Below are positions 848 to 3,303 of a DNA stretch of 37,634 nt, piece after piece. The notes below the pieces were generated by a model, which was not told the origin of the DNA, made no database searches, and saw only the letters and a list, made by a program, of their open reading frames with translations. A program made the translations under genes and the position numbers. Origin of the DNA: Gammaproteobacteria bacterium (GTDB lineage Bacteria; Pseudomonadota; Gammaproteobacteria; UBA9214); NCBI GenBank assembly GCA_003230545.1, contig QIFB01000135.1, positions 1 to 37,634 on the forward strand, read 5' to 3'. Position 1 is the stretch's first letter; each line of letters begins with the position of its first letter.

Positions 848-1050
848 CCGGGGAACATCAAAGAATCAGCTCTTGTCCCTATTGCCCCTTGCTTCAGATC
901 GACCTGATCCCGGCGCCGACGTGGTGGAACTTTCCCGATTAAGACCGTCAAGGATACCTGATGGGAATGAATACCATTTCAGATGATCAGCCCTATACAG
1001 GCTGGGTTATGGTTAATACGGAGCTGGCAGAGTTCGTTTCATAATCAGTG

Positions 1051-1740
1051 ATGCATATTGTAATTATCATACTATTCCTGTTGTTGCTGGTATTTGGTCC
1101 GCAGTGGTGGGCCCGTTACACCTTTCGGCGCTATGCTGACGTTCTCCCCCGGATTCCCGGAACGGGCGGAGAGCTTGCACGCCACCTGCTGGACCGCTTC
1201 GAGATGCCTGAGGTTCCAGTAGAGAAAACGGAGAAGGGTGGCGATCACTATGATCCGGAGCGCCGCGTGGTGTGTCTGAGTCCCGACAACTACGATCACA
1301 ACTCATTAACTGCCGTGGCGGTTGCTGCGCATGAGGTGGGTCATGCCATACAGCATCAGCGCAACGAGCCGAAGCTCGCGCTGCGCCACCGCCTGGTCAA
1401 GGTGGCGCAGTCCACTCAGCAACTCGGTGCCGGTGCCATGTTCCTGCTGCCGGTCGCAGTGGCTATCACCCGCGCGCCATCGGCAGGTCTCATCATGGCC
1501 GCCATCGGGCTTGGCAGTATGGCCAGCGCCACACTGGTACATCTGGTCACCCTCCCGGTCGAGCTTGATGCCAGCTTTGGCAAGGCATTACCTGTTCTCA
1601 AGGCCGGCCACTACATTCAACCAGAAGACGAGCTGGCCGTGCGTCGGGTACTGCGTGCGGCAGCGTTTACCTATGTGGCCAGCTCACTCGCGAGTCTGCT
1701 GAATCTGGCGCGCTGGCTTGCGTTCTTGCGCAGGGCATAG
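1051..1740 (+). CDS. zinc metallopeptidase, YugP-like family
   Basis: N-terminal TM helix, VAAHEVGHAIQH (HEXXH) motif, hydrophobic C-terminal half. Confidence 0.85.
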   Translation: MHIVIIILFLLLLVFGPQWWARYTFRRYADVLPRIPGTGGELARHLLDRFEMPEVPVEKTEKGGDHYDPERRVVCLSPDNYDHNSLTAVAVAAHEVGHAIQHQRNEPKLALRHRLVKVAQSTQQLGAGAMFLLPVAVAITRAPSAGLIMAAIGLGSMASATLVHLVTLPVELDASFGKALPVLKAGHYIQPEDELAVRRVLRAAAFTYVASSLASLLNLARWLAFLRRA

Positions 1741-1889: not shown

Positions 1890-2282
1890 TTGATGATGCA
1901 ATCCACTCGATACCCAATGGCATGGTTCCTTTCTGTCCTGCTGGCACTTATGCCGATAATACCCGCCCAGGCAGCGATGATTGGCACGGACCAGATAATC
2001 AACCCGGCACCAACACACCAGGCAAGAGATCATGTGAAAGAGTTTCTTTCCAGCGAAGCTGCACAACAGCAACTGCTGGAACTCGGTGTCAGTCCCGATG
2101 AGGTAACCAGGCGCATCGACAGCCTGAGCGACAGCGAACTTGCACGCATCAACCAGGGGATCGACCAGCTGAATGCCGGCGGAGGTGTTCTCGAGGTACT
2201 GCTGATTATCTTTATCGTGTTTGTCATTACCGATGTAATCGGCGCAACCGACATCTTTCCATTCATCAAGCCTGTCAACTGA
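1890..2282 (+). CDS. PA2779 family protein (secreted; hydrophobic C-terminal helix)
   Basis: Signal peptide ending AQA; GVSPDEVTRRIDSLSDSELARI...AGGGVLEVLLIIFIVFVITDVIGATDIFPF; adjacent to PA2778-like gene. Confidence 0.75.
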   Translation: MMMQSTRYPMAWFLSVLLALMPIIPAQAAMIGTDQIINPAPTHQARDHVKEFLSSEAAQQQLLELGVSPDEVTRRIDSLSDSELARINQGIDQLNAGGGVLEVLLIIFIVFVITDVIGATDIFPFIKPVN

Positions 2283-2289
2283 TCCGGGC

Positions 2290-3303
2290 ATGAACCGTGC
2301 AATAAACATCCGCCGGATGGCGGGTGTATTGCTGTTCACCGTACTACTGCAGGCCTGTGCGACCCCGCCACAAACACGGGCGCTGCTGGACAACCAGGCA
2401 ACCGGCCTGCCGGTCCGCATCGAACTGAAAGACACCCCGTTCTACCCGCAGGAACGCTATCAGTGTGGCCCTGCTGCACTGGCCACAGTGCTGGGCGCAC
2501 ATTCCATCGAAGTCACACCGGAGGTGCTGGTCGATGCCGTCTATGTGCCGGGACTCCACGGCAGCCTGCCCGAGGAAATGACGGCAACTGCGCGTCATTA
2601 CGCGATGCTGGCCTACCTGCTCGAACCATCACTTGCCGATCTCGTCAGGGAAATCGCAGCAGGGCATCCCGTGCTGATCATGCAAAATTCTGGCTTCCGC
2701 TGGTTCCCCCGCTGGCACTTTGCGGTGGTCATCGGTTACGACCTGGCCGCAGGCGAAGTCATCCTGCGTTCAGGCACCACCGAACGCTGGCAAACCACGA
2801 TGGCTACGCTAGAGAGAACCTGGTCGCGCAGCGGTTACTGGGCACTGGTAATCCTGCCTGCCGGCCGTCTTCCGGCAACCGCACAGCCTGGCCGGTATCT
2901 GCGTGCCGCGCACGACCTGGAAGAATCAAAACAGCCCCGGGCTGCCCGCTCCGCCTACCAGACAGCGGTCCATCACTGGCCGGCCAACCCCCAGGCCTGG
3001 CTGGCACTCGGCAATAACCTGTACGCTGCAAAAGAATATCAACCGGCCGAAACCGCATTCCGGAAAGCCACGGCGCTGGCACCCGAAGATGCCAGCGGCT
3101 GGAACAACCTTGCCTACGCCCTGTTGCAGACCGCCTGCCCGAAGCAGGCACGACAAGCCGCGGCCTGCGCGTTACAGCGCACACCTGATGACCCGAATTA
3201 CCGGGACACCGTGCAGGAGATCAATGCCCGCGCCCGTGGTGACGATGCACTGCGTTGCCAGCCGGTTACGTGTGCGCCGGTAACATTGAAGAATAACCAG
3301 TGA
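2290..3303 (+). CDS. PA2778 family C39-like cysteine peptidase lipoprotein with TPR region
   Basis: Lipobox LLQAC; QERYQCGPAALATVL catalytic Cys region and WHFAVVIGYD His region; C-terminal TPR-like repeats. Confidence 0.8.
   Translation: MNRAINIRRMAGVLLFTVLLQACATPPQTRALLDNQATGLPVRIELKDTPFYPQERYQCGPAALATVLGAHSIEVTPEVLVDAVYVPGLHGSLPEEMTATARHYAMLAYLLEPSLADLVREIAAGHPVLIMQNSGFRWFPRWHFAVVIGYDLAAGEVILRSGTTERWQTTMATLERTWSRSGYWALVILPAGRLPATAQPGRYLRAAHDLEESKQPRAARSAYQTAVHHWPANPQAWLALGNNLYAAKEYQPAETAFRKATALAPEDASGWNNLAYALLQTACPKQARQAAACALQRTPDDPNYRDTVQEINARARGDDALRCQPVTCAPVTLKNNQ

Follow-up and report, generated by a model that had tools for sequence, protein, structure and literature searches.

The DNA analyzed (the window) comprised 37,634 nucleotides of contig QIFB01000135.1, from the draft genome GCA_003230545.1 of a Gammaproteobacteria bacterium. 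Two adjacent genes on its forward strand, separated by 7 bases, were found to encode a protein of the PA2779 family (DUF6627) and a cysteine peptidase of the PA2778 family, both scoring above the cut-offs of their family models (Table 1). The ATG at 1893 was preferred over the TTG at 1890 as the start of the PA2779 gene, and an AAGGAG was located 6 bases upstream of this ATG. Both reading frames and their family assignment had been given in a preliminary description of this DNA and were confirmed here, together with the features listed in it: a signal peptide, the segment LSDSELARI and a glycine run followed by a hydrophobic segment in the first protein, and a lipoprotein signal, a C39-like domain and TPRs in the second. 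A second PA2779/PA2778 pair was detected on another contig of the same draft genome, whose assembly is 85% complete. The gene upstream of the pair (window 1048-1740) encodes a putative membrane metallopeptidase (Zn_peptidase_2, PF04298, 223.6 bits), which did not recur as a neighbor of the pair across the surveyed loci.

Table 1. Genes and features of the PA2779/PA2778 locus (window coordinates; residues numbered in each protein).
Feature	Position	Strand	Remarks
PA2779-family (DUF6627) gene	1893..2282	+	129 aa plus stop; NF033919 (PA2779 family) 129.6 bits, cut-off 40; PF20332 (DUF6627) 124.6 bits, cut-off 27
PA2779 signal peptide, aa 1-27, AQA/A	1893..1973	+	Sequence pattern; A25 90% and A27 82% conserved
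PA2779 conserved mature N-terminus, aa 28-34, M[IV]GT	1974..1994	+	T32 90%; predicted docking on PA2778
PA2779 helical domain, aa 48-93	2034..2171	+	Invariant G65, R74, E82; helices in models
PA2779 LSDSEL, aa 78-83, LxxxEL motif	2124..2141	+	E82 100%, L78 92%
PA2779 NAGG, aa 94-97, consensus P-A-G-x	2172..2183	+	Proposed processing site; only G96 near-invariant
PA2779 hydrophobic helix, aa 99-113	2187..2231	+	Kyte-Doolittle 2.76; one helix in models
PA2779 C-terminal tail, aa 114-129, TDxxGxTDIFPF	2232..2279	+	T119 96%, D114 93%
PA2778-family cysteine peptidase gene	2290..3303	+	337 aa plus stop; NF033920 (PA2778 family cysteine peptidase) 345.9 bits, cut-off 150
PA2778 lipoprotein signal and lipobox Cys23 (LLQAC)	2290..2358	+	C23 98% conserved
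PA2778 C39-like peptidase domain	2425..2859	+	PF13529 (Peptidase_C39_2); Gln54, Cys59 (2464-2466), His143 (2716-2718)
PA2778 TPR domain	2899..3219	+	PF13432, PF14559; Foldseek TPR matches

The two window proteins are clear members of NF033919 and NF033920, and no function is assigned to either family. The PA2779 gene of P. aeruginosa is divergent from bswR, with no function given (PMC3985676), a PA2779-family gene was listed among candidate strong constitutive promoters in P. stutzeri DSM4166 (PMC10155442), and P. aeruginosa clone CHA no longer has the start codon of PA2778 (PMC3697988). The preliminary description had noted no characterised function for the two families, in agreement with our search of the open-licence literature, where no function was found for either, the mentions being limited to expression or mutation lists, and where no paper referred to DUF6627 by name.

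The distribution of the two genes was analyzed in a phylum sample of 399 genomes, in which about 20 genera carry the pair. PA2778 was found above the cut-off in all 40 genomes with PA2779 and in one of the 359 without it, counts that are uncorrected for shared descent; the copy in this single genome was inactive. Among 149 Pseudomonadaceae genomes, 81 had PA2779, and a full PA2778 was present in the same 81. In the first 141 loci, which were collected starting from either gene, both genes were observed in 140, the exception (L072) ending at a contig edge. PA2779 preceded PA2778 in all of the loci except six, where the genes were convergent yet still neighbors, and the stoichiometry was one-to-one at most loci. 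No recurrent third gene was found beside the pair in a Pfam tally of 114 neighbors. The pairing is far beyond chance, and the co-occurrence anticipated in the preliminary description was borne out, with adjacency kept.

The active site of PA2778 was equally constant. Gln54, Cys59, Trp142 and His143 were identical in the 106 complete partnered copies (106/106), so that the catalytic Cys and His proved as invariant as the preliminary reading had demanded. When a predicted model of PA2778 was used in Foldseek, ComA (3k8u, TM 0.83 by target, and 5xe9) and LahT (6mpz, TM 0.73–0.78, a structure of LahT bound to a leader peptide) were recovered. A single-sequence search with the C39 part of PA2778 gave no matches, and the assignment to C39 is therefore based on the fold search together with Pfam and NCBIfam. 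The third catalytic residue of LahT is Asp117 (PMC6363468); at the corresponding position of PA2778, aligned by eye to 161, Ser or Thr was found (one Gly), never Asp, and residue 162 was Gly or Asp. Altogether, PA2778 is predicted to be a cysteine peptidase of the C39 type whose Cys-His site is intact, the fold match coming from a predicted model. An Ala at position +2 of a lipoprotein, as in PA2778, suggests sorting to the outer membrane. Two copies of PA2778 (L069:3866-4858 and L018) contained one in-frame TAG, either a recent inactivation or a sequencing error, and PA2779 was still present in those loci.

Furthermore, the catalytic Cys was gone from the PA2778-like proteins of 20 out of 20 Pseudomonadaceae genomes having these proteins but no PA2779. 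Their sites read QSGP, QSAP, QGGP and similar, and the His was mostly gone too, as was most of the TPR half; the comparison set consisted of 161 distinct active PA2778 copies adjoining PA2779. At least two independent inactivations of PA2778 were required by the tree (67 rows). In genus g227, the flanks of the inactive loci L246 and L247 were about 86–94% identical to those of an active pair (L244), and the synteny indicated that most of PA2779 had been deleted and that PA2778 had been shortened at its original site, losing most of its TPR part. The inactive copies of genomes G404 and G261 had a downstream flank in common and hence occupy the same locus. Nevertheless, several genomes of genus g223 carried an inactive copy alongside an active pair (L219-L224), which belongs to an older inactive lineage; the explanation of all inactive copies as decay after loss of the partner was therefore rejected, and the claim of coupled loss was restricted to a minimum of two events. 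Genomes without PA2779 kept no active PA2778 site, whatever the order of the losses. Pseudomonadaceae have retained an inactive, TPR-less lineage of PA2778-like lipoproteins (L142-L147, L205-L224), which suggests that the C39 fold is useful even when catalysis is absent.

Regarding PA2779, its predicted signal peptide ends in the window as IIPAQA/AM, and NAGGG is followed by a hydrophobic stretch of 19 residues (Kyte-Doolittle 2.76 at residue 99). In the family alignment G96 was 98% conserved, position 97 was occupied by Gly (32%), Glu (30%), Ala (27%) or Gln (7%), and the length of the linker varied just after Gly96; segment 94-98 was the most conserved part of the protein (59% identity). The net charge of the tail was mostly 0 or -1, without a basic cluster. 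The mature protein had either zero Cys or exactly two in the 178 family members; the paired Cys were residues 117 and 127 in 108 aligned pairs (window 2241-2273), and the window protein itself lacks them. This both-or-neither pattern may reflect a disulfide within the tail, which would then be non-cytoplasmic. The PDB matches obtained with the PA2779 sequence were all weak, helical and unrelated. A viral origin of PA2779 was also considered and rejected, since no relatives were found in the viral contigs searched.

The preliminary description had compared PA2779 with double-glycine leaders, whose consensus is Leu-12, Glu-8 and Leu-7 (PMC6363468). L78-x3-E82-L83 reproduces this core, and the LxxxEL pattern was present in the 178 family members (178/178). 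That part of the comparison held, but not the spacing: the core predicts a Gly pair at 88-89 with the cut after 89, and the real pair lies at 96-97, 8 residues too far. Neither was the pair itself conserved as GG, GA or GS, the forms expected of such leaders, in view of the variation at position 97; lack of GG conservation had been named in the preliminary description as a refutation. A strict double-glycine leader was rejected on GG conservation and on spacing, and no bacteriocin or double-glycine leader model of Pfam or NCBIfam matched the pair at E 0.1. L-[ST]-x-x-E at the start of a helix is a common capping box, and the likeness to leaders may thus be a structural chance.

For modelling both chains only, PA2779 and PA2778 were fused by reading the stop codon as Gly where the genes share a frame, as occurs in many loci. 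The AlphaFold model of this fusion (query L064; 21 fused and 45 single rows), in which the covalent link is artificial, reached a pLDDT of 89.5 and a pTM of 0.84, compared with 59.8 and 0.31 for PA2779 modelled alone with the same PA2779 rows. Over the first ten mature residues of PA2779 the mean pLDDT was 93 in the fusion versus 42 alone, and that of its helices was 85–87 versus 57–70. The PAG loop and the hydrophobic helix showed no clear gain, the loop having the lowest confidence there. These predictions suggest that the N-terminus and helical domain of PA2779 dock directly on PA2778.

Additional PA2779 paralogs without an adjoining PA2778 were found in 19 genomes, always with an active pair elsewhere in the genome, a distribution that fits one enzyme with more than one substrate. 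Three of these orphans (L225-L227) were full length. The other 16 (L228-L243) ended right after the hydrophobic helix, without the C-terminal tail, and had PAGG or PTGG in every case (16/16); the tail is consequently not the general product. The five orphans inspected adjoined sua5- and PHP-domain-like genes, with a scpA-like gene on the opposite side where visible (names read from the sequence). A domain-swapped relative was also observed (L149:4077-6156), in which the C39 part (QCGVSALA, NHFVVLVGF) follows the TPR part; its gene comes immediately downstream of one for a secreted helical protein of 309 aa that is weakly PA2779-like (18.6 bits). This permuted pair, present in only one of five genomes of its genus, points to a broader group of lipoproteins that combine C39 and TPR parts and have secreted partners.

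We propose, with somewhat less than even confidence, that PA2779 is a dedicated partner of PA2778 and probably its substrate, cut at the Pro-Ala-Gly linker before the hydrophobic helix. A lipid anchor would keep PA2778 at a membrane, probably the outer one, facing the periplasm, and PA2779, after export by Sec, would stay in or on the inner membrane by means of its C-terminal hydrophobic helix. With the mature N-terminus and the helical domain of PA2779 bound, PA2778 would cut the flexible linker that joins this domain to the hydrophobic helix, releasing the domain from the membrane; the arrangement would be a C-terminal processing signal and not a peptide bacteriocin. The pairing, adjacency, conserved active site and coupled loss were observed directly, the C39 fold match and the binding come from models, and the cleavage, the position of the cut and the role of the product we infer. 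Segment 94-98, both the most conserved one and a flexible loop, speaks for a cut in the linker. Several observations count against a cut: the proposed scissile site was not seen to dock in the fusion model, G96 is followed by Gly, Ala, Glu or Gln, a variability that known C39 sites do not show, Ser/Thr stands in the by-eye alignment where LahT has Asp, and an outer-membrane lipoprotein would have to reach an inner-membrane protein. The hint of a Cys117/Cys127 disulfide in a periplasmic tail, in turn, fits poorly with a helix that simply spans the membrane. The peptidase-substrate pair of the preliminary description was thus kept as a likely dedicated partnership, in which the cut may fall at the one conserved Gly, and was left unsupported as regards a double-Gly cut.

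The main alternative, possible although in our judgment unlikely, is that PA2779 remains uncut and acts as a membrane-held regulator or recruiter of PA2778 (activator, inhibitor or anchor), the true substrate being another envelope protein. The docking of the N-terminus and helices but not of the PAG loop in the model is consistent with this, as are the one-to-one stoichiometry at most loci and the conservation of the hydrophobic helix and tail, which would be needless in a discarded anchor; nevertheless, the strongest conservation falls on the linker, two PA2779 proteins per active PA2778 in some genomes fit substrates better, and no third gene recurs beside the pair. Release of an active hydrophobic peptide of about 30 residues after removal of a double-glycine leader, as first described, is improbable and the less favored of the cleavage outcomes. 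It would agree with the invariant LxxxEL, the conserved tail, the GG of the 16 tail-less paralogs and a C39 fold of the double-glycine type: PA2778 resembles the C39 domains of ComA and LahT/PCAT in fold, catalytic Cys and His and upstream Gln, and its partner has the LxxxEL helix motif. Unlike them, however, PA2778 is a free lipoprotein with TPRs and no ABC transporter domain, with Ser/Thr at the position of the Asp (aligned by eye), and PA2779 differs from their substrates in its Sec signal peptide and in a single conserved Gly placed 8 residues further on. GG occurs in only about one third of the family, the signal peptide already provides export, neither a transporter nor an immunity gene recurs nearby, leader models gave no match, and the paralogs that stop right after the hydrophobic helix leave such a peptide unsupported.

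A sortase-like role, in which the C39-like domain would cut PA2779 and then link it, by transpeptidation, to a different envelope molecule, has only a slight likelihood. The motif, hydrophobic helix, short tail and adjacent dedicated enzyme recall dedicated sorting systems (PMC3237569), among them GlyGly-CTERM/rhombosortase, in which joint presence or absence and, when one target exists, adjacency are also seen; but no acceptor is known, the enzyme is a lipoprotein and not a membrane protein, and the tail has no basic cluster. It is very improbable that PA2779 is itself a GlyGly-CTERM protein processed by a rhombosortase, with PA2778 uninvolved: in spite of the Gly motif followed by a hydrophobic helix, no GlyGly-CTERM model matched at E 0.1, no rhombosortase match was obtained in the genome (0 in an assembly 85% complete), and PA2779 is almost exclusively partnered with PA2778, a cysteine-peptidase lipoprotein and not an intramembrane protease. 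LapG and LapA, a periplasmic cysteine protease and its dedicated substrate, are another likeness to PA2778 and PA2779; LapG belongs among the transglutaminase-like cysteine proteases, of which no Pfam or NCBIfam match was found for PA2778.

C39 peptidases have been described chiefly as components of peptide exporters, and the one predicted here is a self-standing lipoprotein of the periplasm, tied to an obligate partner. Many Pseudomonadota have the pair, among them Pseudomonas, Stutzerimonas, Marinobacter and Thioalkalivibrio. The loss of the partner together with the catalytic Cys yields a clear-cut prediction, open to testing, for these two families, whose annotations name no function. Returning to cleavage of PA2779 by PA2778, the pair could represent a new type of envelope processing in Pseudomonadota, a suggestion that we regard as doubtful but possible, in which a lipid-anchored C39-TPR peptidase would grip the fresh N-terminus of its partner and cut the PAG linker, sometimes acting on more than one substrate per cell.
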